Assembly: GCF_022844385.1 (NCBI RefSeq)
Contig: NZ_JALHLX010000003.1
Location: forward strand, 1 to 64,000
DNA length: 64,000 nucleotides
Reading direction: 5' to 3'
Source of the DNA: Hydrogenophaga sp.
Lineage (GTDB): Bacteria > Pseudomonadota > Gammaproteobacteria > Burkholderiales > Burkholderiaceae_C
This document shows positions 3,829 through 28,251 of this stretch, in pieces (position 1 is the stretch's first letter; every line of letters begins with the position of its first letter). The position numbers and the translations under genes are program-made. Under the pieces are notes generated by a model. That model did not search any database. It was not told where the DNA came from and saw nothing but the letters and a program-made list of their open reading frames with translations.

Positions 3829-4791
3829 ATGGCAAACCTTTTGTGGCTTCAGGGAGGCGCGTGTTCCGGGAACACGATGTCCTTCCTCAACGCCGAAGAA
3901 CCCAGTGCTTGTGATCTGGTCACCGATTTCGGCATCAATATTCTCTGGCATCCATCCTTGGGCGTGGAACTGGGCGACAACCTGAAGGCCTTGCTGCTGG
4001 ACCTGACCAGTGGCCGCAAGCCGCTGGACATCTTCGTGTTCGAAGGCAGCGTGGTCAACGCGCCCAACGGCACCGGCGAGTGGAACCGTTTCTGCGGCCG
4101 GCCGATGAAAGACTGGGTCAAGGAGCTTTCGGCGGTCGCTGCTTTCACCGTCGCGGTCGGCGACTGTGCCACCTGGGGCGGCATTCCGGCCACGGCCCCG
4201 AACCCGTCCGAGTCGGTGGGACTTCAGTTCCTGAAGCGCGCCAACGGCGGCGCCCTTGGTGCAGCCTACAAGTCCAAGGCCGGCTTGCCTGTCATCAACA
4301 TCCCCGGCTGTCCGGCGCACCCGGACTGGATCACGCAGATCGTCGTCGCAGTCGCCACGGGCCGCACCGCCGACATCACGCTCGACGAGTTCCAGCGCCC
4401 GAAGACCTTCTTCCAGTCGTTCACGCAGACCGGCTGCACGCGCAACATGCACTTCGCCTACAAGGTCAGCGCCACCGAGTTTGGCCAGCGCAAGGGCTGC
4501 CTGTTCTACGACCTGGGCTGCCGCGGGCCGATGACGCACTCTCCGTGCAACCGCATCCTGTGGAACCGTCAGTCGAGCAAGACGCGCGCGGGTATGCCGT
4601 GCATGGGCTGCACCGAGCCCGAGTTCCCGTTCTTCGACCTCGCGCCCGGCACGGTCTTCAAGACGCAAACCGTCATGGGCGTGCCCAAGGACATGCCGAC
4701 CGGCGTCGACAAGAAGGGCTACCTCGCGCTCACTGCCGCGGCCAAAAACGCCGCGCCCAAGTGGGCCGAAGAAGACATCTTCGTGGTTTGA
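3829..4791 (+). CDS. hhyS: [NiFe] hydrogenase small subunit, group 1h type
   Basis: Electron-transfer subunit carrying three Fe-S clusters, 320 aa. The ATG at 3829 (MANLLWLQGG) is chosen over the upstream in-frame start because AGGAG lies 6 bases before it and family members begin here. There is no Tat twin-arginine signal, so the enzyme stays in the cytoplasm, as known for the actinobacterial-type hydrogenase of Ralstonia (HofK). The usual CxxC proximal-cluster motif reads C12-SG-N15. In this family a three-Cys/one-Asp proximal cluster is established, which fits the loss of the second Cys. Other ligands are VGDCATWGG, IPGCPAHPDW and the C-terminal Cys-rich MPCMGCTEPEF. It is followed after 24 bases by the large subunit. 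Confidence 0.93.
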   Translation: MANLLWLQGGACSGNTMSFLNAEEPSACDLVTDFGINILWHPSLGVELGDNLKALLLDLTSGRKPLDIFVFEGSVVNAPNGTGEWNRFCGRPMKDWVKELSAVAAFTVAVGDCATWGGIPATAPNPSESVGLQFLKRANGGALGAAYKSKAGLPVINIPGCPAHPDWITQIVVAVATGRTADITLDEFQRPKTFFQSFTQTGCTRNMHFAYKVSATEFGQRKGCLFYDLGCRGPMTHSPCNRILWNRQSSKTRAGMPCMGCTEPEFPFFDLAPGTVFKTQTVMGVPKDMPTGVDKKGYLALTAAAKNAAPKWAEEDIFVV

Positions 4792-4815: not shown

Positions 4816-6414
4816 ATGTCTCAAGTTCAAACCCTAGACATTTCGCCAGTCGGTCGAGTGGAAGGCGATCTCGACATTCGTGTTGACATCAAAGATGGCG
4901 TCGTCACCAGCGCCTGGACGCAAGCGGAGCTGTTCCGCGGCTTCGAGATCATCCTCAAGGACAAGGATCCGCAAGCCGGCCTTGTCGTGACGCCGCGCGC
5001 CTGCGGCATCTGCGGCGCTTCGCACCTGACTTGCGCCGCGTGGGCGCTCGACACGGCCTGGCAGACCGAGGTGCCGCGCAACGCGATCCTGGCACGCAAC
5101 CTGGGCCAGATCGTCGAAAGCCTGCAGAGCCAGCCGCGCTACTTCTATGGCCTGTACGCGATCGATCTCACCAACAAAAACTACCGCAAGAGCAAGTACT
5201 ACGAGGAAGCGGTGAAGCGTTTCTCGCCATTCACTGGCACCTCGTACGAGCAAGGCGTGACGATCTCGGGCAAGCCGGTCGAAATCTACGCGCTCCTGGG
5301 TGGCCAGTGGCCGCATTCGAGCTACATGGTCCCGGGCGGTGTGATGTGCGCGCCGACACTGACCGACATCACGCGCGCCTGGTCGCTGCTCGAGTACTTC
5401 AAGAAGAACTGGCTCGAAAGCCTCTGGCTCGGATGCTCGCTCGAGCGCTACGAACAGATCAAGAGCTACGACGACTTCATGGCCTGGCTGGACGAGTCAC
5501 CGGCGCACGCGAACTCGGACCTCGGCTTCTATTGGCGTATGGGACAGGACATCGGTCTGGATACCTACGGCGCGGGCTTGGGTAAGTACATCAGCTGGGG
5601 TTATCTTCCGCACGAGGACAAGTACCAAAAGCCGACGATCGAGGGACGCAATGCTGCGGTCATCATGAAAAGCGGTGTGTACGACGGGAAGACCGACACG
5701 CACAAGGTGATGGACCAGAAGTTCCTGCGTGAGAACACTCTTCACGCTTGGTATGACGAAGGCTCCGCCGACGTGCACCCTTTTGATCGCACGACCAAGC
5801 CGGTGCAGAAGAATGCCATCGATCACAACGGCAAGTACTCGTGGTCCACTGCCGTCACGCACACGGACGATGGCCGCCTCGAAGCCGGCCCGCTCGCGCG
5901 CCAGTTGATTGCCGGCGGCAAGCATGGCGAGAGCTGGCAGCACTACGATCCGCTCATCCTCGACATGTACAAGAAGATGGGTGGCGCCAGCGTGCACCTG
6001 CGCCAGATCGGCCGCATGCACGAGACCATCAAGCTGTACCGGCAAGCCGAACGCTGCCTGCGCGAGTTCAAGCTCAACGACCCCTGGTACATCAAGCCGC
6101 GCGAGCGCGACGGCCGCGGCTGGGGTGCGACCGAGGCGATCCGTGGTGCGCTGTGCCACTGGATCGAAGTCAAGGACGGCAAGATCAAGAACTACCAGAT
6201 CATCGCCCCCACGACCTGGAACGTCGGCCCGCGCGACGGCAAGAGCCAACTCGGGCCGATCGAGCAGGCGTTGATCGGCACGCCGATTGCCGATCCTTCG
6301 GATCCGGTCGAGGTCGGGCATGTCGCGCGCTCGTTTGACTCGTGCCTCGTCTGCACAGTGCATGCCCACGACGCCAAGACAGGCAAGGAACTGGCTCGCT
6401 TCCGAACCGCCTGA
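4816..6414 (+). CDS. hhyL: [NiFe] hydrogenase large subunit, group 1h type
   Basis: Catalytic subunit holding the NiFe(CN)2CO centre, 532 aa. The N-terminal nickel motif is RACGICGASH (about residues 61-70). The C-terminal motif is DSCLVCTVHAHD, followed by a tail of about 13 residues after the final His that a maturation protease must remove; a candidate protease is encoded at 7189. Length and the pairing with a signal-less small subunit fit the actinobacterial-type, oxygen-insensitive uptake hydrogenases that can oxidise low H2 concentrations. The intergenic gap from the small-subunit stop is only 24 bases, so the two are co-transcribed. Confidence 0.94.
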   Translation: MSQVQTLDISPVGRVEGDLDIRVDIKDGVVTSAWTQAELFRGFEIILKDKDPQAGLVVTPRACGICGASHLTCAAWALDTAWQTEVPRNAILARNLGQIVESLQSQPRYFYGLYAIDLTNKNYRKSKYYEEAVKRFSPFTGTSYEQGVTISGKPVEIYALLGGQWPHSSYMVPGGVMCAPTLTDITRAWSLLEYFKKNWLESLWLGCSLERYEQIKSYDDFMAWLDESPAHANSDLGFYWRMGQDIGLDTYGAGLGKYISWGYLPHEDKYQKPTIEGRNAAVIMKSGVYDGKTDTHKVMDQKFLRENTLHAWYDEGSADVHPFDRTTKPVQKNAIDHNGKYSWSTAVTHTDDGRLEAGPLARQLIAGGKHGESWQHYDPLILDMYKKMGGASVHLRQIGRMHETIKLYRQAERCLREFKLNDPWYIKPRERDGRGWGATEAIRGALCHWIEVKDGKIKNYQIIAPTTWNVGPRDGKSQLGPIEQALIGTPIADPSDPVEVGHVARSFDSCLVCTVHAHDAKTGKELARFRTA

Positions 6415-6518: not shown

Positions 6519-6833
6519 ATGCCGATAGACCCCGACGGCAGCATCCGCGCCCGCATGGCCAAGCTGATGGCCGACGGCCTGCGGACCCAGACGGAACCGT
6601 TTCCGTACACGAGCACGGAGTTCGCGGCGCTGCTAGATCAGTGCCGTGACTTGGATGCCGATGACGTGGTGGGAAAGATGGTGCTCACCGGTTGGATCGA
6701 CAAGCCTTACGGCGAAGACCGCATGCGCTGCCAGGAATGCATGTACTACCTTGTGCACCGCAAGTGGTGCGATCTGCCCGAGCTGGATCTGCCGGCCGAG
6801 CCCGACTGGTGGTGTCGTCTGTGGCGTATCTGA
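6519..6833 (+). CDS. four-cysteine HiPIP-like small protein, copy A
   Basis: Small acidic protein of 104 aa. The ATG at 6519 follows an ACGAGG sequence. The C-terminal third carries C-x2-C-MYY-x3-HR-x-W-C-DLPEL-x7-DWW-C-RLW, i.e. cysteines spaced 2, 9 and 14. This order (CxxC, Cys, then a Trp-Cys near the C-terminus) resembles high-potential iron-sulfur proteins, which suggests a [4Fe-4S] cluster and electron transfer, although a Zn site is possible. Paralogs lie directly downstream (6852) and at 22551. Position right after the hydrogenase large subunit suggests an electron carrier or assembly partner of the enzyme. The function is inferred. Confidence 0.75.
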   Translation: MPIDPDGSIRARMAKLMADGLRTQTEPFPYTSTEFAALLDQCRDLDADDVVGKMVLTGWIDKPYGEDRMRCQECMYYLVHRKWCDLPELDLPAEPDWWCRLWRI

Positions 6834-6851
6834 GCTCGGGCGGAGGTAAGC

Positions 6852-7181
6852 ATGTCGGAAGAAGAACTCTCACGGCAACGCGAGCTGATCCGCAGCGCTC
6901 TGGCCGATGGCCTGCACACAGCGTGGCAGGATCGGGCATATGAGAGCGCTGACGTGCGCAGGACGGTTGACGCGCTGCAAGCGATTGCGCCGGATCGACT
7001 GGAAGACAAGCTCCGGGTCGCGGGCTTCACGCTGCAGCCCTACGTTGCCGATGAGGCGCCGGAGATCGAACAAGCCTGTCGCACGTGTATGTACTATGAG
7101 TCGCATCGACGGTATTGCGACCTCCCGGAGTTGAAGCTTGGAGTCGAACCCGAGTGGGCCTGCGTGCTGTGGCGTGTCTGA
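6852..7181 (+). CDS. four-cysteine HiPIP-like small protein, copy B
   Basis: 109 aa, starting with ATG 6852 after GGAGGTAAGC, a strong ribosome binding site. The same C-terminal block as copy A is present: CRTCMYYESHRRYCDLPEL, then EPEWAC-VLW, with identical 2/9/14 cysteine spacing. The N-terminal half is a predicted helical region of similar length to copy A (ERL/ALADGLHTAWQ). Identity between the copies is confined mainly to the cysteine block, so they are old paralogs rather than a recent duplication. It is 18 bases behind copy A and 7 bases ahead of the protease, within the hydrogenase operon. Confidence 0.75.
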   Translation: MSEEELSRQRELIRSALADGLHTAWQDRAYESADVRRTVDALQAIAPDRLEDKLRVAGFTLQPYVADEAPEIEQACRTCMYYESHRRYCDLPELKLGVEPEWACVLWRV

Positions 7182-7188
7182 TTCTGCT

Positions 7189-7659
7189 ATGGGCAGCCGC
7201 GTTCGCTTGGCGGTCATCGGATGCGGCAACCCTGCGCGTCGAGACGATGGGGTCGGTATCGAAGTCGTGCGTCAGCTGCGCCGATGCACCGCAGAGGGCG
7301 TCGATCTGATTGATGCCGGCACCAGCGGCATGGATGTGATGTTTCGCGTGCGCGGCGCCGAACGCGTGGTCATCGTCGACGCGTGCCGCAGCGGGAGTTC
7401 GGCGGGTGCGATCTTCCGCCTTCCCGCGAAGGAGGCAATGACGCCCGTAGAGCACGGGTTCAGTCTGCATGGTCTGCGTTGGGATCATGCGCTGTATGCC
7501 GGCAGCAGGATGTTCGGCGAGTCCTTTGCCGATCACGCGGAGGTCATCCTGATCGAAGCGGGCGATATCGGTTTCGGCCTCGAACTGACCGACCCAGTCC
7601 GTGCTGCCGCCGCGCGCGTGGTGTGCATGCTCGAACCCTTGGTACGTGGCGATGGATGA
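7189..7659 (+). CDS. hydrogenase maturation protease
   Basis: Endopeptidase of the HyaD/HybD/HoxM family, 156 aa, which cleaves the C-terminal tail of the large subunit after nickel insertion. Family signatures: GCGNPARRDDGVG near the N-terminus, DAGTSGMD, VVIVDACRSG and a conserved FSLHG. The acidic residues and the His of these motifs are the nickel-sensing ligands in HybD. The ATG at 7189 has no clear ribosome binding site and lies 7 bases after the preceding stop, so translation is probably coupled. The stop overlaps the start of the next gene. Confidence 0.88.
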   Translation: MGSRVRLAVIGCGNPARRDDGVGIEVVRQLRRCTAEGVDLIDAGTSGMDVMFRVRGAERVVIVDACRSGSSAGAIFRLPAKEAMTPVEHGFSLHGLRWDHALYAGSRMFGESFADHAEVILIEAGDIGFGLELTDPVRAAAARVVCMLEPLVRGDG

Positions 7660-7969
7660 GGACAGCCTCGAGACGCTGGTGGAAGTGCGCGCCGGTCGCT
7701 TGCATGTGCCGGCGCAGACCTACGAACGCGTGCTGGACGGGTTCCCCGCCGTGGCGCTGCTCGCCCGCGACGACGGCTGGTGGCTCATTCCGCTCAAGGC
7801 AGGAGCGGGTGGGTTGCAGCTGAAGCAACGCAACGCACGCGGAGACAGGGTGATCGAAGCGCAGGAGTTCCTGCGCTCGCAGGGGGTCGATGACGCGCAG
7901 GAGCCGATGACCTTCAGCTTGGAGTTCGATACAGGGCGTGGCGCGTACCGGTTCGGGCGCACGCGGTGA
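7652..7969 (+). CDS. hypothetical protein of hydrogenase operon, 105 aa
   Basis: I do not recognise a named family. The ATG at 7652 lies inside the last codons of the protease gene (overlap 8 bases), so the two are translationally coupled. The product is small and soluble, mostly beta-type and charged (DGWWLIPLKAG, ending AYRFGRTR), with no cysteines in the chosen frame and no membrane segment. Coupling to the protease and its place as last gene of the structural operon suggest a role in maturation or stability of the hydrogenase. That is context only. Confidence 0.65.
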   Translation: MDEDSLETLVEVRAGRLHVPAQTYERVLDGFPAVALLARDDGWWLIPLKAGAGGLQLKQRNARGDRVIEAQEFLRSQGVDDAQEPMTFSLEFDTGRGAYRFGRTR

Positions 7970-15615: not shown

Positions 15616-18035
15616 GGGATCTTCTCCTGTCGTTGTTCGTCCTGGCTGGCGCGGGCCAGTGCGATCAGCGCCTGGCCCCAGGCAAGCCCGCCGTCGTTCA
15701 CCGGCACCTGGCGCGGCAGCAGGGCCTTCAGCCCCGCCGCCTCGAGCCCGCGCAGAACGAGTTCGGTGAGCACCTTGTTCTGGAACACGCCGCCGCCCAG
15801 GGCAACGGTCGTCAGCTCGTGACGTTCGGCCTCTTGCTGCGCCATGCGCACGATGACCGCCGCCAGCCCGCGGTGAAAGCGCGCAGCGATGCGGGCCGCG
15901 GGTGTGGCCAGAATCAGGTCGCCGAGCAGGGCCTGCCACATGCCCAGAGGCTCGACGTAGGGCAGGCCCTTGCCCTTGTCCAAGCGAGGAATCGCGAACG
16001 GGTAGTCGAGGTCGGCGCTCTCGTCGAGGTCTTGCGCGGTGACCAGAGATTCCAGGCCCATCGCTGCCTCGCCTTCGTAGGCCACGTTGTCGCGGCAGAT
16101 GCCGATGGCAGCCGCTACCGCATCGAACAAGCGCCCGACGCTGCTGGCACGCGGCGCCAGGGCCGGTTTGGCAAGCATCGCATCAAGCATCTCGCGCGGC
16201 TTGGCGCTGAGGAAGCGGTGCAGCTCCAGCTCGTCATAGTTGCTCGTGAAGCGCGGCCAACCCATCTCGGCCATCAACTGCGCATAGGTGTTGCGCCAGG
16301 GCTCGCGTGCCGCCAGGTCGCCGCCCGGCAGGGCCACCGGCTTGAAGGTGCCCACGCGTTGCGCCTGCCGGTAGTCGGCGAGCAGGAACTCGCCGCCCCA
16401 GAAGCTGCCGTCCTCGCCCATGCCGATGCCGTCGAGCGCTATGCCGAGCACCTTGCCGCCGTGCAGCGGCCACCCGTGCTCGCCCAGGCAGGCGGCGATG
16501 TGCGCATGGTGGTGACCGACGCCGACCTGTCGGTCGGCCCAGCGCTCGTGCGCGAGCTGCGTCGAGGCATAACCCGGATGCAGATCGCAGGCGACGAGGT
16601 CGGGCTCGAAGGCGTAGAACGCGAGGTAGTCGGCCAGCGCACGCCGCTGGTCGGCCAGGCAGGCGGCATCGTGCAGGTCGCCGATGTGCTGGGACAGCAC
16701 CGCCTGCCCATCGCGCACCAGCGCGAAGGTGTTCTTCAGGTCGCCGCCGAGCGCCAGCACCTTGGTGCGGTGGTCGAAACCCTCGGGCAGCGGCAGCGGC
16801 GCCGGGGCGTAGCCACGCGCGCGACGCATGACCCGGAAGGCGCCGCCGACGACGCGGCCGACCGAATCGTCCACCCGCCGCTGGATCGCACGGTCGTGGT
16901 CGAGCACCCACGCGATGGAGGGGCCCAGGCGGGCCGAAGCTTCGTCCAGCCGTATCGCTTGCGGCTCTTCGCTCAGGTTGCCGCTGGTCAGCACGATCGG
17001 CGCCTTGCGGCGCCGCATCAGCAGCAGGTGCAGAGCAGTGCTTGGCAGCATCACGCCCAGCGTCGGCAGGCCGGGTGCGACGCCGTCGGCCAGCGGTGCA
17101 TCGGCGCGCCGCGGCAGCAAAACGATCGGCGCGGCCGGGCTGGCGAGCGCGGCCTCGGCCACGTCGTCGCACAGGCACCACTGGCGCGCCATCTCGACGT
17201 CACGCACCAGCAACGCGAAGGGCTTGCCTTCGCGGCGCTTGAGTGCGCGCAACCGCGCCACCGCGTCGGCGTGTGTCGCGTCACAGGCGATCTGGTAGCC
17301 GCCCAGGCCCTTGATCAGCACCAACTCGCCGCGCCCCAGCAACGATGTGGCGCCATCCGCGTCGTCGAGCGCGGTCATGGCCTCCAGGCTGAAGGGCTTG
17401 CCGTCGATACGGCGCAGCGTGGCGCGCGGGCCGCAGGCGTGGCAGGCCATCGCCTGGGCGTGGAAGCGCCGGTCGTCGGTGTCGCCGTATTCGCGCGCGC
17501 AGGCCGCACACAACGGGAAGGGCGCCATCGTCGTACGCGCGCGGTCGTAGGGGGCGCGTTCGAACACGCTCAGGCGCGGGCCGCAGGCGGTGCACGCGGT
17601 GAACGCATAGCGGTAGCGGCGCGCGAAAGGATCCAGTGTCTCGGCACAACACGCCGGGCAGATGGCCCAGTCGGGCGCCACGCCGAGGCCCGGCTGCGCC
17701 AGCGCGCTGTCGGCGATCGAGAAGGTCGAAGGCAGCGCCGCCGGCACGGCGAGCGGCTGCGCGAGCAGCGCATCGATGCGGGCGCCGCCGTGGTCGAGCG
17801 TGCGCAGCCGCTGCTCGAACTCGGCGAGCGCCGGCCCGGGGCCAAAGGCTTCGACGATGGCCATCGTGCCTTCGTTGTGAACGCTGCCCACCACGCCGAG
17901 CGCGCGCGCCAGGTGCAGCACCTGCGGCCGGAAGCCGACACCCTGAACGATGCCGCGCACCTGCAAGCGTGCGCCGCACATCGGCGCCGCATGGGGTCGA
18001 TCGGTCAGCACTGCGGTGGCGGGCGCGGCGCTCAT
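15606..18035 (-). CDS. hypF: HypF, carbamoyltransferase
   Basis: 809 aa from MSAAPATAV. Domains in order: acylphosphatase (LQVRGIVQGVGFRP), two zinc fingers (CPACC to CTACG; CAACA to CHACG), a YrdC-like carbamoyl-adenylate domain (GLGGYQIACDATH, KRREGKPFALLVRD), and a Kae1-like domain with VGHHHAHIAA and GIALDGIGMGEDG. It makes carbamoyl-AMP from carbamoyl phosphate and transfers the group to the HypE cysteine. The ATG at 18035 abuts the NHL-gene stop with overlap. Confidence 0.95.
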   Translation of the reverse strand: MSAAPATAVLTDRPHAAPMCGARLQVRGIVQGVGFRPQVLHLARALGVVGSVHNEGTMAIVEAFGPGPALAEFEQRLRTLDHGGARIDALLAQPLAVPAALPSTFSIADSALAQPGLGVAPDWAICPACCAETLDPFARRYRYAFTACTACGPRLSVFERAPYDRARTTMAPFPLCAACAREYGDTDDRRFHAQAMACHACGPRATLRRIDGKPFSLEAMTALDDADGATSLLGRGELVLIKGLGGYQIACDATHADAVARLRALKRREGKPFALLVRDVEMARQWCLCDDVAEAALASPAAPIVLLPRRADAPLADGVAPGLPTLGVMLPSTALHLLLMRRRKAPIVLTSGNLSEEPQAIRLDEASARLGPSIAWVLDHDRAIQRRVDDSVGRVVGGAFRVMRRARGYAPAPLPLPEGFDHRTKVLALGGDLKNTFALVRDGQAVLSQHIGDLHDAACLADQRRALADYLAFYAFEPDLVACDLHPGYASTQLAHERWADRQVGVGHHHAHIAACLGEHGWPLHGGKVLGIALDGIGMGEDGSFWGGEFLLADYRQAQRVGTFKPVALPGGDLAAREPWRNTYAQLMAEMGWPRFTSNYDELELHRFLSAKPREMLDAMLAKPALAPRASSVGRLFDAVAAAIGICRDNVAYEGEAAMGLESLVTAQDLDESADLDYPFAIPRLDKGKGLPYVEPLGMWQALLGDLILATPAARIAARFHRGLAAVIVRMAQQEAERHELTTVALGGGVFQNKVLTELVLRGLEAAGLKALLPRQVPVNDGGLAWGQALIALARASQDEQRQEKIPCV

Positions 18036-19213
18036 CACGCGACGTCCCACAACAGGATGCGGTTGTTGCCCGAGTCGACGATGATCGCGGTGTTGCCTTG
18101 AATCGCGATGGCATACGGCCAGCACAGCGAGTCGCGCACCGCCGGCAGCCAGCGGTTGTCACCCTTGTCGACGAAACTCGCCTGCCCGGCCACCGCGCGC
18201 GCCTCGCGCTCGGCAGGTGCGTCCAGGCGCAGCACGCGTGAGTTGGCGGTGTCGGCAACGAAGAGCCGGTCTTCATGCACCGCCAGGCCGTAAGGCATGT
18301 TCAGGCTGCGGGCGCTGGGAAAGTACTCACCACGGTTGTGATCCAGCGCGTCAATCTCGCCTTGACCGATGATGAGGTCGCTGCGCGCCATGTTGCTGGC
18401 CGGGTCGCCGCGCCACAGCAGCAGGCGGTTGTTGCCGGCATCGGCCACGCATAGATGCCCCTGCCAGACGGCGAGCGCATGGGGCCAGCGCATCGTGGCC
18501 TGCGTGACGCCACCGGCGTTTTCGTCGCGGTGCACGAAGTCCGGCTGGCCGAGCACGAGGTTGGCGCGCTGCCCGTCACGCGCCGGCAGGCCGTCGAAGC
18601 GCAGCACGCGGCGGTTGCCGGTGTCGGCCACCCACAGGCGCGCACCGTCCCAGAACACGCCATACGGCCAGTGCAGGGTGTCGGCCGCAGGCGTGTCGAG
18701 CCCGCGGTTGGCCAACCCGGCGTGCGCATCGGCCTGGCCCAGCACCACGTCGGCCGGCTGTTGACTGTGCCGCGGCGCACGGTGCCAGATCAGCACGCGG
18801 TGGTTCCACGCGTCGGCGACTGCAAGGCCCTCGCCGCAAGCGCACACGCCGGTGGGCACGTTCAAGCTGGCGCCGTTGACCTCGGCATGCGCATTGCGGC
18901 CCTCGCGGTCGAAGCCGGGTTGTCCGATCACCCACGAAGCGGGTTCGCCATCGCCGGTAGGCACCGCCGGCCAGCCCAGCAGCCGGTGGTGGCCGGTGTC
19001 GGCAACCCACAAGGCGCCGTCGGCGGTCACCGCCGCGCCGCGAGGTCCGAACAGGGTGTTTGCGGCGGGCGTCAGGGCGACGCCGGACAGCGGGTCGTGC
19101 AGGCCGAGAATGACACGCGCGCCGGCCGCGGCAAGCGCCGCCGGGGCAACTGCGCGCTCGCGCGGCCGTGCGAGCGATACCTTGACGGGCGCGGCAGCCG
19201 CGATGCCGTTCAT
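18035..19213 (-). CDS. NHL-repeat beta-propeller protein
   Basis: 392 aa, start ATG 19213 overlapping the previous stop. After about 40 residues it consists of roughly six NHL repeats, each with a pattern like GVAVxxDGxLWVADTGNHRVLxW, followed by LGQPDF-type linkers. It forms a predicted six-bladed propeller with no signal peptide and no cysteine-cluster motif. NHL proteins accompany actinobacterial-type (group 1h) hydrogenases in several organisms. A scaffolding role for the hydrogenase or its electron partners is inferred, not shown. Confidence 0.85.
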   Translation of the reverse strand: MNGIAAAAPVKVSLARPRERAVAPAALAAAGARVILGLHDPLSGVALTPAANTLFGPRGAAVTADGALWVADTGHHRLLGWPAVPTGDGEPASWVIGQPGFDREGRNAHAEVNGASLNVPTGVCACGEGLAVADAWNHRVLIWHRAPRHSQQPADVVLGQADAHAGLANRGLDTPAADTLHWPYGVFWDGARLWVADTGNRRVLRFDGLPARDGQRANLVLGQPDFVHRDENAGGVTQATMRWPHALAVWQGHLCVADAGNNRLLLWRGDPASNMARSDLIIGQGEIDALDHNRGEYFPSARSLNMPYGLAVHEDRLFVADTANSRVLRLDAPAEREARAVAGQASFVDKGDNRWLPAVRDSLCWPYAIAIQGNTAIIVDSGNNRILLWDVA

Positions 19214-20094
19214 GCCGACGCTCCCAGCTTCACCGCGACGCGCCCACCGCGCACACGAACGGCGTGCACCACCAGTTGCACCTCGGGCACGTCGAGGCAT
19301 TCGCCGGTATCCAGGCGGTAGCGGAAGCCGTGATGCGGGCACTCGATCACGCCTTCGGCGACAGCGCCATCGTCCAGTGGCATGCCGAGATGCGCGCAGG
19401 CGTTCGCCACGCAAAACACCTGCGAGCCGTCGCGGTAGAGCAGCAAGGCCTCGTCGCGCAGCGTACGCGCCGCCACCTGGCCTTGCGGCAGTTCGTCCAC
19501 GGCGCAAAGATCGACGAAGCCACGATCCTCGGCCTTGGCGAAGGGGCTGACGAAATGAATCGGCACCGCTTCGCCGGGCGCCCGCGTTTCGGCCGAGCGC
19601 CGCACCTGGACGACGCGGACGATCTCCGGCGCATGCTCCTTGATCGCACGCTCCACGCCTTCGGACAGCGTCTGGCCCGATGCCGGACAGCTTTGGCAGC
19701 TGCCGGTCAAGCGCACCTCGACGGTGTCGGGCAGCTTGATCGCCACCAGCTCGACACCGCCGGCATGCTCGGCCAGCATCGGTGCGACCGACTCCAGCGC
19801 GGCGCGGACCCGCGCCTCCAGCGGCTCGCGCACCAGACCATGCAGCCGCAGGACGCCATAAATGAACGGGTCCGACGCCAGCTCGCGCAGCCGGGCCGCG
19901 GCCGCCGGCTCGTCGCGCAGCCCCTTGAGCAGGCGCACCAGCGCCTCGCGGTGCAGGGCCTCAATGGCGCCGCGCAGGTTGTCGAGCACGGCGCGCTGCT
20001 CCAGCGGCCAGGCCTGGCCGATGGCCTGCAGCGCCGCCACCTCGGTGGCCATGTGGGCCAGCCGCTCGCTGTCGTCGTGGGTCGCTGCGTTCAC
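19210..20094 (-). CDS. NifU-domain/Rieske fusion protein
   Basis: About 294 aa with a helical N-terminus, then a NifU C-terminal-like domain (LTGSCQSCPASGQTLSEGVERAI, CxxC) and a C-terminal Rieske [2Fe-2S] domain (CAHLGMPL and CPHHGFRY). The Rieske ligands CxH and CxxH are complete. A GTG at 20094, with GAGG about 10 bases before it, is preferred to an in-frame ATG at 20145, which lacks a binding site and overlaps the upstream gene. The fusion could carry electrons from the hydrogenase towards the quinone pool. Similar proteins are conserved beside group 1h hydrogenases; the exact role is inference. Confidence 0.85.
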   Translation of the reverse strand: MNAATHDDSERLAHMATEVAALQAIGQAWPLEQRAVLDNLRGAIEALHREALVRLLKGLRDEPAAAARLRELASDPFIYGVLRLHGLVREPLEARVRAALESVAPMLAEHAGGVELVAIKLPDTVEVRLTGSCQSCPASGQTLSEGVERAIKEHAPEIVRVVQVRRSAETRAPGEAVPIHFVSPFAKAEDRGFVDLCAVDELPQGQVAARTLRDEALLLYRDGSQVFCVANACAHLGMPLDDGAVAEGVIECPHHGFRYRLDTGECLDVPEVQLVVHAVRVRGGRVAVKLGASA

Positions 20095-20114
20095 GGGGCT
20101 GGGCCTCGGGTTCT

Positions 20115-20333
20115 TCAGTTGTACTTGAGGTTGCGGAACAGCCACGGCATCAGCGCGCCGCCGAAGGCACCACCGGCCACCATGCCGAGCCAGGGGTTCA
20201 GCCAGCCGAGCGCGAGCATCAGCGCGAGCGTCACGGCAAAGCCGGCGCCGAGCTGGCGGAAGAACGCCCAGTTGTCGCGGAACAGCTTGCCGGCGACGAA
20301 CAGCTTGATCGAATTGAGCACCATATCGAACAT
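20115..20333 (-). CDS. small membrane protein 1, 72 aa
   Basis: Two predicted membrane helices (FAVTLALMLALGWL and LGMVAGGAFGGALMPWLF) behind a short amphipathic N-terminus with several Lys/Arg, ending FRNLKYN. No known family recognised. The translation start context AAGGAGCAAACGATG is identical in its last 13 bases to that of the neighbouring small gene. It lies between the NifU-Rieske gene and a second tiny membrane protein, so it may anchor hydrogenase electron-transfer partners to the membrane. Confidence 0.75.
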   Translation of the reverse strand: MFDMVLNSIKLFVAGKLFRDNWAFFRQLGAGFAVTLALMLALGWLNPWLGMVAGGAFGGALMPWLFRNLKYN

Positions 20334-20352: not shown

Positions 20353-20544
20353 TCAGCGCAAAGCGTGGATCAGCACGGCCACCACCGCGGCGGGCACCAC
20401 TGCGGCGAGGCCGAAGAAGGCGCCCATGAAGGCGGCGATCTCGTTGCCCATCGCCTGGCCGCCGAGCTTCACGCCGGTTGCGGCACCGCCCGCCGCGCCC
20501 GCCAGCACGGCGGCCAGGCACATCAATACGAGGGTCACAGTCAT
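20353..20544 (-). CDS. small membrane protein 2, 63 aa
   Basis: Two predicted hydrophobic helices (MTVTLVLMCLAAVLAGAAGG and FFGLAAVVPAAVVAVLIHAL) joined by a Gly-rich loop with VKLGGQAMGNE. The start at ATG 20544 is chosen for its GGAGCAAACG binding site; an in-frame ATG 12 bases upstream is possible. No family recognised. The Gly-zipper-like composition and the pairing with the 72-aa protein suggest a small hetero-oligomeric membrane component. Confidence 0.7.
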   Translation of the reverse strand: MTVTLVLMCLAAVLAGAAGGAATGVKLGGQAMGNEIAAFMGAFFGLAAVVPAAVVAVLIHALR

Positions 20545-20600
20545 CGTTTGCTCCATGTTGGTCAATGGTTTGGTGGATGCTCCTGAACCAGGAGTTCTGG

Positions 20601-21659
20601 TCAATGTTCGGTCGGCCCGGCATCACCGGGGACGCGTGAGGCGCCGAAGTCGGCGTGCGAGGCATCGATGCCGGCGAGTGCGTCGGCCACCGTGGCCGCA
20701 GCGTCGTCCAGGCCCGCGGACTGAAAGAGTCGTTGCGCCTCCCGATACAGCGCACGCGCCTTCGCGGTGTTGCCCGGGTTGCCCAGCTCGGGGTGCTCGG
20801 GGTCGTCCGGCAGGTTGAGCAGGGCATTGGCCTTGTTGGCCGCGGTGTTGGCGTACTCCACCGGCATGTCGCGCGGGTTGCGCACCTTCAGCGCCTCGTC
20901 GTACGCCTCCACTGCACGCAGCAGGTTGGCCACGGGATGACTGCTCGGCGCGTACTGCAGCGCGTTGCCGAGGTTGTTCTGCGTCATCGCGTACTCGCTG
21001 GGATGGTCCACCAGCGTCACGATGCCGAGCACCTCCTCGAACGACTGCACGGCGAGCGCCTCGCGCATGCGCGCACGTTCGTCGGTGGCCGGAATCGAGA
21101 GGTAGGCGATCGCCAGGTTGTTGTGCAGGATCGAGAACTCGCGCGGCCAAGCTTGTTTGGTGAACACGCGCAGGGCGCGGTGGTAATGCGCGATCGCCTC
21201 CTGGATCGTCGCCCGGTGAGCAGCGCAAAGCGTCTGCGTCACGAGGCCCAGGTTCAGGTCGAGTTCGGCCACTTCTTCGGCCAGGCCATGGGTGGCCAGG
21301 TCGGCGCGAGCGGCCTCGAAACAGTCGCGCGCCGATTCGAGTGCGGCGGTACCACCATCGGGCAGGGTCTGGTAGGCCGTGCCCTGGCGGGCTCGAATGC
21401 GCGCGGCCAGCAACGCGAACGTGGGTGGAACCAGCGCCAGTGCCCGCTCGTACAGCGCCACCGCATCGTGCAACTGGCGCGGCGAGCGCGGCTTGATCTG
21501 CAGACCGCGGGCGATCTCCATCAGCATCTCGGCCCGTTCCTCGGGCGCGGCCTCGCCGTCTTCCGCCAGAGCCAGCGCCGATTGCACCTCGGCGTCGGCC
21601 ACCGTGAAGAGGCTTCGGCCATCCGGTCGGCCCGAAGCGGGCGCCGTGCTTGTCTCCAT
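20601..21659 (-). CDS. TPR-repeat protein, first gene of accessory operon
   Basis: 352 aa from METSTAP; AAGGAG lies 10 bases before the ATG at 21659. Tetratricopeptide-like helical repeats run through the whole protein (AVALYERALALVP, AIAHYHRALRVFTK, AVEAYDEALKVRNP, ARALYREAQRLFQSAG), with repeated NNLAIAYLS/NNLGNALQ motifs. No signal peptide. TPR proteins act as assembly platforms; here it probably helps organise the hydrogenase complex. It leads the run of about 15 co-directional genes that ends at 8133. Confidence 0.8.
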   Translation of the reverse strand: METSTAPASGRPDGRSLFTVADAEVQSALALAEDGEAAPEERAEMLMEIARGLQIKPRSPRQLHDAVALYERALALVPPTFALLAARIRARQGTAYQTLPDGGTAALESARDCFEAARADLATHGLAEEVAELDLNLGLVTQTLCAAHRATIQEAIAHYHRALRVFTKQAWPREFSILHNNLAIAYLSIPATDERARMREALAVQSFEEVLGIVTLVDHPSEYAMTQNNLGNALQYAPSSHPVANLLRAVEAYDEALKVRNPRDMPVEYANTAANKANALLNLPDDPEHPELGNPGNTAKARALYREAQRLFQSAGLDDAAATVADALAGIDASHADFGASRVPGDAGPTEH

Positions 21660-22028
21660 AAATTTTGTCTCCTTGCTGGCTCTTGGGCCACGCCGGGGTT
21701 CGCTACTAGCTGCTATCGCAAGATTAACCAACGGCTCGAGAACGTCTATTAGGTAAACACCTTATGAAAACTAAGTTTGCTATCTAGCCGGCTGGCTATT
21801 TGTTGGCGCACCGCGCGGTTGCGTGCCAATGTACTTGCCTGTCAAACATTGTGGACGCGGCTGACCGAGACCCTAAATCGCCTGAAAAAAGGAAACAAAT
21901 CAAGGATTTGCCAGCCAGTCATCCGTGTTTCGCGGAGGTTCGAACGCAGCTGGCACGAAGCGTGAGCAAGAAGTGACGACCCATCACGCCATTCCGGGCA
22001 TCCGAGGTCAAGGCCCGGAGACATCTAC
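21660..22028. other. intergenic, divergent control region with possible old promoter
   Basis: No gene seen. AT-rich stretches at 21740-21790 and 21880-21905 could contain the promoter of the accessory operon. On the plus strand, TGGCACGAAGCGTGAGC at 21951-21967 resembles a sigma-54 -24 element with a poor -12 half. It lies 62 bases before the decayed hydrogenase small-subunit start at 22029, as expected for the promoter of that lost operon. Confidence 0.4.
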
Positions 22029-22215
22029 ATGAAGTCGTTCTACGAGGTGACGCGCCGCCAGGGCATGAGAACAAGCCGCGCACACCGATGCTGTGGCGTT
22101 ATGGGCTGGAGTACACCTGTTGTTCCGAGGACTCCATCCGCTCGACCCACCCCGCTGGCCGAAGACATTGTGGTGTCAATGATCTCGCTGGCCGATGCCG
22201 GCAACCAGCCACGGC
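22029..22215 (+). pseudogene. remnant of Tat-type [NiFe] hydrogenase small subunit
   Basis: ATG 22029 follows GGAGACATCTAC and opens with [12 protein letters not shown], the typical start of Tat-exported small subunits (HupS/HoxK/HyaA). After a deletion and frame change, the next frame reads [21 protein letters not shown] and then SIRSTHP, matching the mature N-terminus and proximal-cluster motif (normally ECTCCSE). A second frame change then gives [13 protein letters not shown]. The Tat twin-Arg core and everything beyond about 60 residues are gone. It is the stub of a second, membrane-bound hydrogenase operon. Confidence 0.8.
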
Positions 22216-22554
22216 TGCAGCGGCCATAGCGGACAGGGGCTGCGGCGCTTCTCGGCGTCCATCACTGGCAGCGCTCGCGTTCACGTGAGCGGCCCTACAC
22301 GGGTGCAGCGGTTCTTGTCGAGATTTCTGGTTGTCGTTGTTGTGGCGCTTGCCATTGAAGGACTTGTTGCAACCTTCAAGGCCGCGCACGAGGACCCACG
22401 TCAGTTGTACTTTGCGTCGTGCATCGTCGCCTCTTGCGGTGTTCTGCTCGCAGGCTGGGACTTGTTCATACGGTTCAACAGTTATGCGGAGAAACTTGAG
22501 CCGGAGGCCATGGCCGAGGCGAATCAAGAGGGCACTAAGATTAGCTTGGACTAG
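22195..22554 (+). pseudogene. small membrane protein, probably 3' fragment
   Basis: The last 80 residues look like real protein: RFLSRFLVVVVVALAIEGLV, then FASCIVASCGVLLAGWDLFIR, two hydrophobic helices, and a charged tail ending LEPEAMAEANQEG. The first 35 residues are low-complexity and overlap the decayed hydrogenase fragment, with no ribosome binding site. A GTG at about 22286 is a possible start for a short two-helix protein. I cannot name the family. The stop codon interlocks with that of the opposite gene (CTAG). Confidence 0.5.
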
Positions 22555-22871
22555 AGCTTCCACAGCCGGCACCACCATTGCGGCTCGACCGGGACTGGCA
22601 ACTCGGGCAGGTCGCACCACTTCCGGTGTGGCAGGTAGTAGATGCACTCGGCGCAACGCTGTTCGATGCCACCGAGTTCAACCGGATGCGGCGCGAAGCC
22701 GCCGATGTCCAGACGACCCACAAGATCCTCGGCAGGCAGGTCCGCTAGGCGGTCGAGAATGGCCTGGAACTCAATCTGGTTGGCCGGGAACGGTGCCATC
22801 TGCGTCGACATGCCAGACGACGGCATCTCCCCGATCCGCATGCGCAGCAGGTTCAGAGCAACGCGGTCCAT
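22551..22871 (-). CDS. four-cysteine HiPIP-like small protein, copy C
   Basis: About 106 aa. The ATG at 22871 is used, with GGAG 5 bases before it; the earlier in-frame codon is TTG. It carries the same block as copies A and B: CAECIYYLPHRKWCDLPEL, then EPQWWCRLW, with cysteine spacing 2/9/14. The N-terminal half aligns with copy A (APFPxxxxEFxAxLD, then DLVGRL). It is intact although its surroundings are decayed genes, and it directly abuts a pgm stub on the same strand. It may have belonged to the lost hydrogenase operon or serve the present one. Confidence 0.7.
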   Translation of the reverse strand: MDRVALNLLRMRIGEMPSSGMSTQMAPFPANQIEFQAILDRLADLPAEDLVGRLDIGGFAPHPVELGGIEQRCAECIYYLPHRKWCDLPELPVPVEPQWWCRLWKL

Positions 22872-22999
22872 CGTGCTCCAATCCAAACGAAGTTCTCCAG
22901 GTAGTGCGGCTGGTGGAACTCCGCCACCTTCTTGCGTAGGCCCGAGGTGCCGGGCTGCTGGCCGGCAAAGGGCTGGGTCGGCAAGCTGACGATCGCCAT
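22853..22999 (-). pseudogene. pgm: phosphoglucomutase 5' stub
   Basis: Starts at ATG 22999 behind CAGGAGAACCGTCG. The first 38 residues (MAIVSLPTQPF, PGTSGLRKKV, HQPHYLENFV) match the N-terminus of alpha-D-phosphoglucomutase. Homology stops at about 22886 and the frame ends at 22853 inside the four-cysteine gene. More than 90 percent of the gene is missing. The break marks the right edge of the hydrogenase region against housekeeping DNA (the next gene also acts on hexose phosphates). Confidence 0.8.
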
Positions 23000-23031
23000 C
23001 GACGGTTCTCCTGTTGGAGCGGTGCGAGCCT

Positions 23032-23952
23032 TCAGAGCGGCAGCGCGGCGTAGCTCACCGACAGGGTGTGGCTGCCGCCGGCCGGCACGGTGACCACGTT
23101 GTCCAGAGCATTGGCCGACTCCACGCAGACCATCTCGCGCCAACCGCCCTGTCCGGCGCGGCCGGGTCCGAAGTCGCCCATCTTGTCGGCCTTTTCCGCC
23201 CAGGGCGTCCAGACCACGGTGGCACGGCTGCCCGTCTTCGCGATCTCTATGCGACGCTGCAGCCCAGGGTCGACGATCACGCAGTCGGCGCCGGTGTTCA
23301 GGTAGACGCGGTCCACCTCGCCCGCGAACCGGACGGCGCCCCGCTGCACCTTGCGCACAGCGCCCGCCACCTTGTCCACGTACTCGCACGCGTCCAGGCC
23401 CTGCACCTCGACGGCCCCGATGTCGCTGATGCCCAGATAGGTGTGCAAGGCCTCGCCAAGGACGAGGTCCTGCGGGCCGGGGTTGTGCGTGGTCAGCTCG
23501 ATGCGCAAGCGCCTGCCGACGCTGACCCTCAGCGCCAGCCGGGCTTCGTGCGGCCACTGCGCCCGCGTGGCCTCGGTCGGCGTCAGGGTCAGGCCGATGC
23601 TTGTCGAGCCGTCGGGCAGCGCCGCCGTGTCGCAGAGTTCCCAGGGCACCGTGCGTGCAAAGCCGTGGCCGGGCCAGCCGCTTTCCGTGACATGAGGGCC
23701 GAACCACGGCCAGCACACGGGCGCACCGCCGCGAATCGACTTGCCCGGCGCGAACGTGGCCAGCGGTGACAACCAGACCACGGGTTCGGCCTGGTCCTTC
23801 GGTCGCCAGCTCATCAGGTGGGCGCCTTGCAAGCACAGGCTGGCGCTGCCGTGCGCGTTGTCGATGTCGGCAAAGGCCAGCCCGTTGGTCCCGATGCGCA
23901 GGCTCACGTGACCGGGAATCGCGTGGCGCGCGAGCAGTGTGGGGTTCGACAT
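23032..23952 (-). CDS. D-hexose-6-phosphate mutarotase (YeaD-like)
   Basis: 306 aa aldose-1-epimerase-fold protein that interconverts alpha and beta hexose-6-phosphates. Family features: QGAHLMSWRP, SIRGGAPVCWPWFG, GHGFAR, the catalytic-type EALHTYL (His and Glu), and WTPWAEKADKMGDF with VCVESAN near the end. Cytoplasmic, no signal peptide. It sits just downstream of the pgm stub on the same strand, a sensible partner for the lost phosphoglucomutase. Confidence 0.88.
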   Translation of the reverse strand: MSNPTLLARHAIPGHVSLRIGTNGLAFADIDNAHGSASLCLQGAHLMSWRPKDQAEPVVWLSPLATFAPGKSIRGGAPVCWPWFGPHVTESGWPGHGFARTVPWELCDTAALPDGSTSIGLTLTPTEATRAQWPHEARLALRVSVGRRLRIELTTHNPGPQDLVLGEALHTYLGISDIGAVEVQGLDACEYVDKVAGAVRKVQRGAVRFAGEVDRVYLNTGADCVIVDPGLQRRIEIAKTGSRATVVWTPWAEKADKMGDFGPGRAGQGGWREMVCVESANALDNVVTVPAGGSHTLSVSYAALPL

Positions 23953-24036
23953 GGCATTCCAATTATGGGCGGGTGAAAGGGTCCGCGCCGAAACCGAGTC
24001 CCTGGCTCGACGGTCTTTGCAGCGGGCGCATCGGAC

Positions 24037-25383
24037 TCAATGCCCCTCGACTCGGCTGTGAATCCGGCGCGTCAATCGCCACACGCCCCACAGCACCAGC
24101 GGTATCGCGGCGCCGGCGGCGAGTTCAGGGTGGATGGGAACACCCGCCGCCTTGGCCGCTTTGCCAAGGTACAGCAGAAGGCTGACCACGTAGTACGAGA
24201 TCGCCGCGATCGACAGGCCCTCGACCGTGCTCTGCAGCTTCAACTGGAGTTGCTGGCCCCGAGCCAGCTTGGCCAGCAGCTGCTGGTTCTGCGCTTCGCG
24301 GGCGATGTCCACGCGTGTGCGCAGCAGCGCGCCCGCACGCTCGATGCGCTGCGACAGCGATGCCAGTCGCCTGGCGGCCGATTCCACGGTGGCCATCGCG
24401 GGCGCGAGCCGGCGCAGCAGGAATTCGCCGAGCGTCTGCGTGCCGGGGATGGCCTGCTCGCGCAGCTCGTCGATGCGCGAGCGCACGAGCGCGTAGTAGG
24501 CCTCGGTGGCGCAGAACCGGTAGCTGTGCATCGCCGTGGCCCGCTCGACGCGGGCAGCCACGGCAGTCAGCGTGTCCAGAAGCACGGCGTCGTGCAGGTC
24601 CCGCGCCTCCGTCAGCGATGTCAGCTCGGAGACGGCGTGCTCCGCCTCGCGCAGCAGGGTCTGCAAGGACTTGGCCACCGGCAGCCCGCGCAGGGCCAGC
24701 AGGCGGTAGGTCTCCATTTCGAGCAGCCGTGCCGCCAGCCGCCCGACGCGCGTTTCGCCGGTACCGGTCTGGGCGATCACCACCATGCGCTCGTAGCCGC
24801 TCGCGCGCAGCCGGAAATCGCTCACCACGCAGCTGTGGCCGTTGCGCCCCACGAGTGAAACGACGACCGTGCGATCGCCGAACCAGTGCCGTGCGCGCTC
24901 CAGCGGCGCCGCGACCTCCTCGGCGCTGCCGGCGAGGATGACCAGTTCGATCGCCGCCAGCGTGTGCCCGGGGATGCCGCGCAGCCACTCATGGTCGATG
25001 ACCAGCGCGGCCAGCAACTCGGGATCGCTCGCGCCCTGGGTCGCCTCGGCGGGCAAGGGTTGCACGAGGGAGTAACGCGTGACTTCGGTGTGGCGTTCCC
25101 ACTTCAGCGTGCCGCAAGGCAGGCGCAGGCGCAGGAAGTGGCCGGCCAACTGCTCGCCCATCAGCAGGCGCTGGCCCGGCAGCTGCCGCAGGTGCTCGAG
25201 CTCGCGCTCGATCGGCACACCTTCGTTGAGCACGGCGACCTGCAGCACCAGGGCCGGCAGGCGAATCCGCGCCGTCGGCCGTGCGTGCACCTCGTCGTGC
25301 AGGGCGCGCCGCTCGGCGGCGTCGGCAGGCAGGGCCAGCGCGGCGGGGTGGCCCGGTGGTGGTGGCGTGTCAGGGTCGGTCAT
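24037..25383 (-). CDS. DUF3422 membrane-anchored protein
   Basis: 448 aa protein of the DUF3422 family (uncharacterised, membrane-anchored). The N-terminus ALHDEVHARPTARI is the family hallmark, followed by long helical regions rich in Leu/Arg. Two hydrophobic helices lie near the C-terminus (AAISYYVVSLLLYLG and GAAIPLVLWGVWRL). Function is not known. The ATG at 25383 overlaps the stop of the preceding gene as ATGA, so it is in an operon with the chorismate-lyase-like gene and ompW. Confidence 0.85.
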   Translation of the reverse strand: MTDPDTPPPPGHPAALALPADAAERRALHDEVHARPTARIRLPALVLQVAVLNEGVPIERELEHLRQLPGQRLLMGEQLAGHFLRLRLPCGTLKWERHTEVTRYSLVQPLPAEATQGASDPELLAALVIDHEWLRGIPGHTLAAIELVILAGSAEEVAAPLERARHWFGDRTVVVSLVGRNGHSCVVSDFRLRASGYERMVVIAQTGTGETRVGRLAARLLEMETYRLLALRGLPVAKSLQTLLREAEHAVSELTSLTEARDLHDAVLLDTLTAVAARVERATAMHSYRFCATEAYYALVRSRIDELREQAIPGTQTLGEFLLRRLAPAMATVESAARRLASLSQRIERAGALLRTRVDIAREAQNQQLLAKLARGQQLQLKLQSTVEGLSIAAISYYVVSLLLYLGKAAKAAGVPIHPELAAGAAIPLVLWGVWRLTRRIHSRVEGH

Positions 25384-27463: not shown

Positions 27464-28251
27464 CAAGTGACCCCCTGCGCCAGCCGCTGTGCCGTAATGG
27501 CTACGGCCATGAACTCGTCGACGTTCAACGAGGCCCCGCCCAGCAGGCCGCCATCGACGTCGGGCATCGCCAGCAGCTCGCGCGCATTGGCCCGCTTCAT
27601 GCTGCCGCCGTAGAGGATGTGCACGCCCGCGGCGATCTCCGCATCCGCCTCGGCCAGGCAGCGGCGGATGAACGCGTGAACGTCCTGTGCCTGCTCGGGC
27701 GTGGCCGTGGCACCGGTGCCGATCGCCCACACGGGCTCGTAGGCCACGACCGCATCGGTGAACGCGCTCGCCCCGGCGAGATCGAGCACCGCGCGCAACT
27801 GGCGCGCCACCACGGCCTCGGTAGCGCCTTGCTCACGCTCCTGCAGCGACTCGCCGACGCACAGCACGGGCGTCATGCCGGCCCGGCTGGCCGCGAGGAA
27901 CTTGTGTGCGACGACGGCGTCGCTTTCGCCGAACAGTGCGCGCCGCTCCGAGTGGCCGACCAGCACGCAGGCGCAGCCGAACTCCCGCAGCATCTGGGCC
28001 GACACTTCGCCGGTGTAGGCCCCGCTTTCATGCTCCGAGACGTTCTGGGCGCCCCAGGCCATGCCGCTGTCGCCCAGGCATCGTTGCGCCTCGGGCAGGT
28101 ACAGGAAGGGCGGGAACAACACCAGCTGCACGAGGTTCAGGCGTGCCATGGCACCGTCGGCGTTCGCAGCCGCCAGCGCCTGCACGCCGGCCAAGCTGCC
28201 GTTCATCTTCCAGTTGCCGGCCACCAGGAAGTTGCGGCGTCGGCTACCCAT
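27463..28251 (-). CDS. tpiA: triosephosphate isomerase
   Basis: 262 aa from [19 protein letters not shown]. Catalytic Lys is in NWKMNG, His in VLVGHSERR, and Glu in [11 protein letters not shown]; the phosphate loop is LYGGSM. It equilibrates the two triose phosphates in the Calvin cycle. The start overlaps the cydB stop by 8 bases, so the oxidase and triose isomerase genes are translationally linked. Confidence 0.95.

Follow-up and report, generated by a model that had tools for sequence, protein, structure and literature searches.

The hydrogenase locus and three four-cysteine proteins

The window analysed here, a 64,000-nucleotide stretch of a Hydrogenophaga sp. contig (NZ_JALHLX010000003.1), encodes both subunits of a [NiFe]-hydrogenase, two small four-cysteine proteins (A and B) behind the large subunit, and a third such protein (C) on the opposite strand:

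3829-4791, plus strand: HucS, small subunit (Oxidored_q6 and small-subunit C-terminal domain)
4816-6414, plus strand: HucL, [NiFe] large subunit (NiFeSe_Hases match)
6519-6833, plus strand: four-cysteine protein A, 104 aa, first gene 3' of hucL
6852-7181, plus strand: four-cysteine protein B, 109 aa, paralogous to A, with Trp-Ala before the fourth cysteine (Cys4)
7189-7659, plus strand: hydrogenase maturation protease
7652-7969, plus strand: small conserved protein X, 3' of the protease gene
18035-19507, minus strand: NHL-repeat protein, named by likeness to annotated genes
19210-20145, minus strand: NifU/Rieske protein, HucE-like, named from gene order and likeness to genes annotated as NifU or Rieske
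20115-20333, minus strand: sm2, small hydrophobic protein, probably membrane-bound
20353-20556, minus strand: sm1, small hydrophobic protein, probably membrane-bound
20601-21731, minus strand: TPR protein belonging to the extended hyp operon; the name follows from its position, from PMC2408588 and from likeness to annotated TPR genes
22551-22886, minus strand: four-cysteine protein C, 106-111 aa, a third copy of A type

The minus-strand cluster consists of genes for an NtrC-type regulator, Hyp proteins, a SIS protein and the NHL, NifU/Rieske, sm2, sm1 and TPR proteins. It corresponds to the extended hyp operon of Nostoc (PMC2408588), and its make-up agrees with the genes described as accompanying group 2a hydrogenases (PMC7784904). 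Because of these matches, and with hucSL and the NifU/Rieske, TPR, NHL and hyp genes found in the order known for group 2a, the enzyme is classified, from its resemblance to loci that are annotated or published, as a group 2a (Huc/Hup) [NiFe]-hydrogenase. The sm1 and sm2 proteins, which resemble Nostoc asr0689/asr0690 by place and length only, are candidates for a membrane anchor or a quinone port.

A sequence-only reading of this DNA had reported three paralogous open reading frames that share the C-x2-C-x9-C-x14-C pattern and the CDLPEL motif, with a tryptophan before the last cysteine in two of them and with two copies directly behind the large subunit, and all of this is borne out by the translated frames: the last cysteine is preceded by Trp-Trp in A and C and by Trp-Ala in B. 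The start of A (6519) lies 105 bases beyond the end of the HucL stop codon (6414); B, with GGAGG ahead of its ATG, starts 18 bp past the stop of A and is followed by the protease gene at 7189. For C, translation from the TTG at 22886 yields 111 aa, and the alternative ATG at 22871, with GGAG upstream, yields 106 aa. A search of the same genome with A recovered A itself, C (E 4.5e-32) and B (E 9.7e-17), with no fourth copy at E <= 10 in this 94% complete assembly. These matches, together with 167 relatives detected in GTDB contigs, indicate that the paralogy is not a chance resemblance.

A conserved family linked to one branch of group 2a

We compared 85 loci, namely 5 from plasmids and the best 80 of the 167 found in the GTDB contig scan (the weaker ones were left out), in addition to the window; the counts that follow carry this selection. 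Together with the window, these loci contain 163 members. Spacers of 9 and 14 are conserved in 160 of them, which also end five residues past the last cysteine (one of these has an extra upstream cysteine); among the other three, X stands for an undetermined residue in two, and arginine replaces a cysteine in the third. Protein A is present in every one of the 85 loci. Two copies occur in 75 and a single copy in 10, compared with three in the window; two of the one-copy loci (L045 and L085) reach the contig edge just past A, and the other eight have no recognised B. In 84 of the 85 loci, HucL lies directly 5' of the first copy, the exception being a contig that starts there (L017), and in 83 the protease gene is next after the last copy, the other two being contig ends.

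The record titles of the best 80 of the 167 contig relatives include Pseudomonadota, Nitrospirota (Nitrospira among them) and MAGs of Acidobacteria; no relative was detected in viral contigs. Neither Pfam nor NCBIfam assigns A, B or C, and all plasmid copies (12 A and 12 B) are annotated as 'hypothetical protein'. Thus, the profile and neighbourhood search that had been proposed as a check reveals a family conserved beside HucL and without an assignment in Pfam or NCBIfam.

When the genomes behind 31 of the loci were searched with a profile, the number of copies (one or two) was that of the huc locus in all but three genomes, which have a third copy (G861 and G867) or a partial copy on another contig (G857). 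The A and B proteins of G861, the genome of locus L009, are identical to those of the window. In L009 and in L010, titled Burkholderiales and Lysobacteraceae, A, B, HucS, HucL and the neighbouring proteins are all 100% identical to those of the window, which may reflect a wrong title or bin, or a recent transfer. Sinimarinibacterium flocculans (L066) carries two tandem HucS-HucL sets with NtrC matches, and A is found behind the second set only.

The tree of 43 thinned rows separates A and C from B with support of 100/100, and C groups with the extra copy of G867 inside the A side (100/98). This split indicates that A and B stem from an old duplication and that C is an A-type copy. The C-type gene of G867 likewise adjoins a TPR gene, in divergent orientation; it is in a Pseudolysobacter MAG that the orthologue of C lies beside a TPR gene (L140). 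An origin of C as the relic of a second, decayed hydrogenase locus was considered and rejected: in the region 21731-24100 there is no clear hydrogenase remnant besides C (best E 0.23), and C is of A type, with an orthologue present in a different MAG.

We estimated conservation as the median identity over the query length for the best match per locus, with 37-83 loci per gene, drawn from the set with the best 80 of 167 and excluding the identical L009 and L010; where a locus has a single copy, B is matched by A. The medians are 85.6% for HucS, 79.1% for HucL, 66.0% for HypD, 59.6% for A, 49.2% for HypF, 46.7% for TPR, 45.3% for NtrC, 44.0% for B, 43.4% for NHL, 43.1% for sm2, 42.3% for the protease, 40.5% for NifU/Rieske, 30.2% for sm1 and 27.0% for X. 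Thus, A is conserved better than the protease, NifU/Rieske, NHL, TPR and HypF (40.5-49.2%) and less than HypD, HucL and HucS.

The association with the enzyme was also assessed from the HucL side, by scanning at E <= 1e-100 the genomes of the class (369), the phylum (398) and the phylum of Nitrospira moscoviensis (148; G850). All 10 distinct genomes with HucL of 71-100% identity carry A and B behind it (the HucL of G469 is partial); two of the ten, the own genome and G850, were sampled for these genes, and without them the unbiased figure is 8 of 8. Conversely, none of the 9 genomes with HucL-like proteins of 40-43% identity has a member of the family within about 1.5 kb on either side. The plasmids show the same contrast: all 12 records with HucL identity of at least 76% (alphaproteobacterial, 76-82%, seven being near-identical Bradyrhizobium plasmids) carry A and B, as against none of the five plasmid loci at 56-58%, from Mycobacterium intracellulare, Thermus, Sulfobacillus, Runella and Hymenobacter. 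No HucL of between 58 and 71% identity was met in the genome scans or the plasmids; Bacteroidota, Actinomycetota, Bacillota and Deinococcota are represented by the five plasmid loci only, and Cyanobacteria and Chloroflexota lie outside the sample. The suggestion of the sequence-only reading that these proteins are dedicated to the hydrogenase is thus supported by the position of HucL in 84 of the 85 loci (5 plasmid loci and the best 80 of 167) and by the co-occurrence of 8 of 8 versus 0 of 9. A, B and C form a conserved family tied to one branch of the group 2a hydrogenase, and the dedication of A and B to this branch is well supported by gene order and co-occurrence.

Among the small companions, sm2 has no match in the five loci that lack A and B, and sm1 has one doubtful match there (E 0.013). 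Protein X, for which no Pfam match was found, has relatives also in loci without A and B, in Mycobacterium and Thermus and, more weakly, in Hymenobacter and Runella.

Comparison with high-potential iron-sulfur proteins

The four-cysteine pattern had been likened to that of high-potential iron-sulfur proteins (HiPIPs). This likeness is recovered in the predicted fold and is marginal in sequence, and it does not extend to the PF01355 cut-off, the Gly-Trp motif or the export signal. As a reference, we built a profile of 29 HiPIPs. Among 120 genomes of the order, 30 gave a total of 39 matches; 30 loci were kept, and one of these was dropped because it had no motif. The two groups share four cysteines with a single CxxC and an aromatic residue at both Cys2+3 and Cys4+3, seen in all 29 HiPIPs and in all 157 motif-fitting members of the family (158 given, including those of the best 80 of 167 loci). 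They differ in the spacers, 8-14 and 12-13 in the 29 HiPIPs as against 9 and 14 in the family. Before Cys4, Gly-Trp is found in 29 of 29 HiPIPs, whereas A and C have Trp-Trp/Tyr and B mostly has Trp-Ser, also Trp-Ala and once Trp-Tyr. The PROSITE pattern of HiPIPs includes Gly-Trp/Tyr-Cys at the fourth ligand; it fits 26 of the 29 HiPIPs and none of the 158 members (best 80 of 167 loci included). Unlike HiPIPs, the family has no export segment by a simple test (top 19-residue Kyte-Doolittle mean of 1.14 over 158 members); RR occurs within the first 25 residues of 22 of the 158.

PF01355 does not match A, B or C at E <= 1. It matches six of 117 members (L021, L036, L041, L046, L073 and L087) with E of 0.043-0.74 and 10.6-14.6 bits, below the cut-off of 22 bits. 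These matches span profile positions 20-65 of 66, the whole four-cysteine stretch, and are not independent, since all six proteins are A-type and similar to each other. Elsewhere in the same genome, PF01355 has matches above the cut-off at C1:56816 and C142:589.

Comparison with our HiPIP profile using hhalign gave P 0.0007, with a probability of 26% for the last 50 residues and 14% for the full length, and with Cys3 two columns off. The profile-profile score against the 29 HiPIPs was 21.3, compared with 11.3 +/- 2.6 for cysteine-keeping shuffles, 1 of 200 of which reached it. Under the HiPIP HMM, the last 50 residues of the members score 5.5 bits on average versus -0.9 for cysteine-keeping shuffles, 1.5% of which reach that mean, as do 12.5% of the shuffles that also keep W and Y; over the full length, the mean is 4.2 bits, reached by 2.9% and 21% of the respective shuffles. 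At this level, the sequence comparison is suggestive and falls short of proof.

Other families were compared as well. DUF2284 (PF10050, predicted metal-binding) matches 6 of 117 members, with a best E of 4.2e-4 that surpasses the HiPIP matches, but does not match A, B or C; the four located matches (L060, L084, L047 and L056) are B-type (E 0.027-0.09, 13.0-14.7 bits, cut-off 25 bits), cover residues 22-94 and stop short of Cys4. A member-by-member re-scan of 77 members recovered four of the six DUF2284 and all six HiPIP matches, and no family reached its cut-off for any of the members in these scans. Against the PDB, B had no sequence match at E <= 10, and the profile of 117 rows gave chance-level matches only (best E 1). 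Rubredoxins have two CxxC knuckles, and identity with rubredoxin or HoxR was rejected because the family has no second CxxC, with C-x2-C followed by C-x14-C in 160 of 163 members (best 80 of 167 loci included).

The AlphaFold2 models of A (117 rows, A and B) and of B (55 B rows only) have pLDDT of 93.8 and 96.2 and pTM of 0.84 and 0.87, respectively. The Foldseek search with A had the HiPIP 3hip as its top match, which is not significant (E 1.6, probability 0.15), and the search with B returned no HiPIP within E 10. When VIA-align was run on the top-ranked Foldseek chains, 32 for A and 25 for B, all entries listed at Z >= 2 were HiPIPs: 14 of 14 for A (Z 4.4-5.3, 54-63 residues, rmsd 2.0-3.3) and 7 of 7 for B (Z 4.3-5.3, 53-67 residues, rmsd 2.4-3.7). 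Rubredoxins are absent from these rows, an absence that is not proof. Although Z below 8 may reflect a common arrangement, the result carries weight because a single family is listed, most of the HiPIP chain is covered, and the two models agree, the second having been built without A rows. The structure prediction that had been proposed as a check thus comes out in favour of HiPIPs in VIA-align and short of significance in Foldseek; A and B probably have a HiPIP-like fold, as judged from the models.

Possible roles at the hydrogenase

For group 2a enzymes, structural knowledge of how electrons reach quinone comes from mycobacterial Huc, where electrons meet menaquinone at HucS and the HucM stalk brings menaquinone up (PMC10017518, the part consulted). 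The residues aligned with Lys212, Tyr229 and Tyr301 of the Huc menaquinone site are kept in HucS of five of five sequences from the branch with A and B; in M. intracellulare HucS, these numbers fall on K, Y and Y. HucS of the branch may accordingly reduce quinone directly, which weakens the case for a relay and implies that A and B could be a relay, a scaffold or assembly helpers. The HucS of one Acidobacteria MAG (L025) lacks the PCxGCTEP stretch present in nine other aligned sequences, perhaps through an assembly frameshift.

Like A and B, HucM is a small accessory protein of a group 2a hydrogenase whose gene adjoins hucSL; unlike them, it is encoded upstream of hucS and described as alpha-helical, and the M. 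intracellulare protein has no cysteine at all. A DUF1641 protein occupies the place of HucM in M. intracellulare, with likeness in the Thermus and Sulfobacillus loci, all three without A and B; DUF1641 matches two HucM-like proteins and does not match A, B or C. It is found in none of 40 genomes with A and B and in 3 of 14 control genomes, a distribution that fits A and B being structural subunits or scaffolds that replace HucM in the branch and would be stabilised by a core of zinc or of a cluster that transfers no electrons. Yet DUF1641 occurs in only 1 of 200 genomes of the phylum, and being so rare in Pseudomonadota, its absence weighs little; mutual exclusion with HucM was rejected as proof of replacement. 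A scaffold would agree with the conservation of A towards the level of the structural genes and with its position next to hucL. The FmdE treble-clef zinc finger model matches 1 of 117 members (E 0.018), and the PDB profile search found a chain of 2gvi, presumably FmdE-like, at E 1.1 over the GF...CxxC stretch. However, treble clefs and ribbons have two knuckles and the family a single CxxC, and the VIA-align rows are HiPIPs throughout; we consider this explanation quite unlikely.

A relay has in part been anticipated in print. In Acidithiobacillus ferrooxidans, the product of DN052_04130, 'near the hupLS genes', was described in 2020 as a putative HiPIP that was raised in anaerobically H2-grown cells; the link to ubiquinone was considered likely to be this protein, the Rieske/NifU protein DN052_04095 or the two together (PMC7735108). 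Counting from DN052_04095 along the conserved order, we infer that DN052_04130 is A and DN052_04125 is B, an assignment by gene order. The electron-relay role proposed there is the one considered here, but the consulted part of that paper treats one gene in one species, without the pair, the family, the fold or the distribution. In the main texts of the open-access literature, supplements aside, neither the pair nor the family was found described, and PMC7735108, in the part consulted, was the only source to name a HiPIP at the place adjacent to hupLS. The view that the family is little described therefore holds for the family as such, whereas the putative HiPIP and its relay role were already in print; what this analysis adds is that the family is paired, branch-wide and, by prediction, cytoplasmic, that it splits into A and B, and that its third copy is of A type. 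Another candidate acceptor from the same operons, the NifU/Rieske protein HucE, is needed for H2 consumption in M. smegmatis, and hypothetical proteins 3' of HucE/HhyE were suggested as further possible acceptors (PMC6883350, likewise in part). HucE differs from A and B in being a separate protein, and the HucE-like gene (19210-20145) coexists with both in the window.

We propose that A, B and C are cytoplasmic proteins of predicted HiPIP fold, each of which would hold one [4Fe-4S] cluster on its four cysteines, lined by the conserved Trp/Tyr residues. A would dock on the HucSL complex, and B, the faster-evolving paralogue, would act beside it, so that electrons would leave HucS through A/B for the quinone pool. 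Given the predicted HiPIP-like fold and the aromatic-lined cysteine site, we hold a relay by such a pair, dedicated to the group 2a branch of Pseudomonadota, Nitrospirota and Acidobacteria, to be the likeliest role, with roughly even prospects of being correct. Against it count the eight of 85 loci (best 80 of 167 included) that have A without a recognised B, and the two-subunit composition reported for Hup purified from At. ferrooxidans (PMC7735108).

That composition would also suit assembly factors, which, comparably to HoxR or HupGHIJ, would mature or protect the Fe-S clusters of HucS, or keep HucL bound until it is proteolysed, and then leave the finished enzyme. The location of A and B between hucL and the maturation protease gene, the kept quinone site of HucS and the evolution of B at the pace of maturation genes are all compatible with such a function, and a rubredoxin-related protein is known to be important when a group 1d enzyme matures aerobically (PMC6883350). 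Nevertheless, the predicted fold is HiPIP-like rather than rubredoxin-like, most accessory genes are less well conserved than A, and the five group 2a loci from Mycobacterium, Thermus, Sulfobacillus, Runella and Hymenobacter lack A and B, so that we regard an assembly function as rather less than probable.

Overall, the family is real, conserved, branch-specific and linked to the enzyme, probably HiPIP-like, and partly anticipated in print. The gene pair marks another group 2a branch, in Pseudomonadota, Nitrospirota and Acidobacteria, beside the HucM-dependent mycobacterial Huc, and A and B may be the missing link that passes on electrons from H2. If the proposal holds, the HiPIP fold, so far periplasmic, would also occur in the cytoplasm. 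More tentatively, and with doubt prevailing, this branch might lack a HucM stalk and instead combine the cytoplasmic pair with sm1 and sm2 for transfer from HucS to membrane quinone, which would make it the first hydrogenase with a cytoplasmic relay of HiPIP type.

Some other genes of the window, named from the open reading frames alone, are of note. Genes for a bd-type oxidase, Calvin-cycle enzymes and carboxysome-like proteins (26804-59684 and 28244-30621) share the window with the hydrogenase; they include apparent aldolase, PGK, GAPDH, transketolase, FBPase and RuBisCO large subunit (58263-59684) genes as well as CsoS2/CsoSCA-like ones, so that the window reads as a compact island of H2-driven carbon fixation. 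A tyrosine-recombinase-like frame upstream of the hydrogenase genes (87-1331), likewise named by reading, is a possible mark of mobility; several relatives of the locus reside on plasmids.
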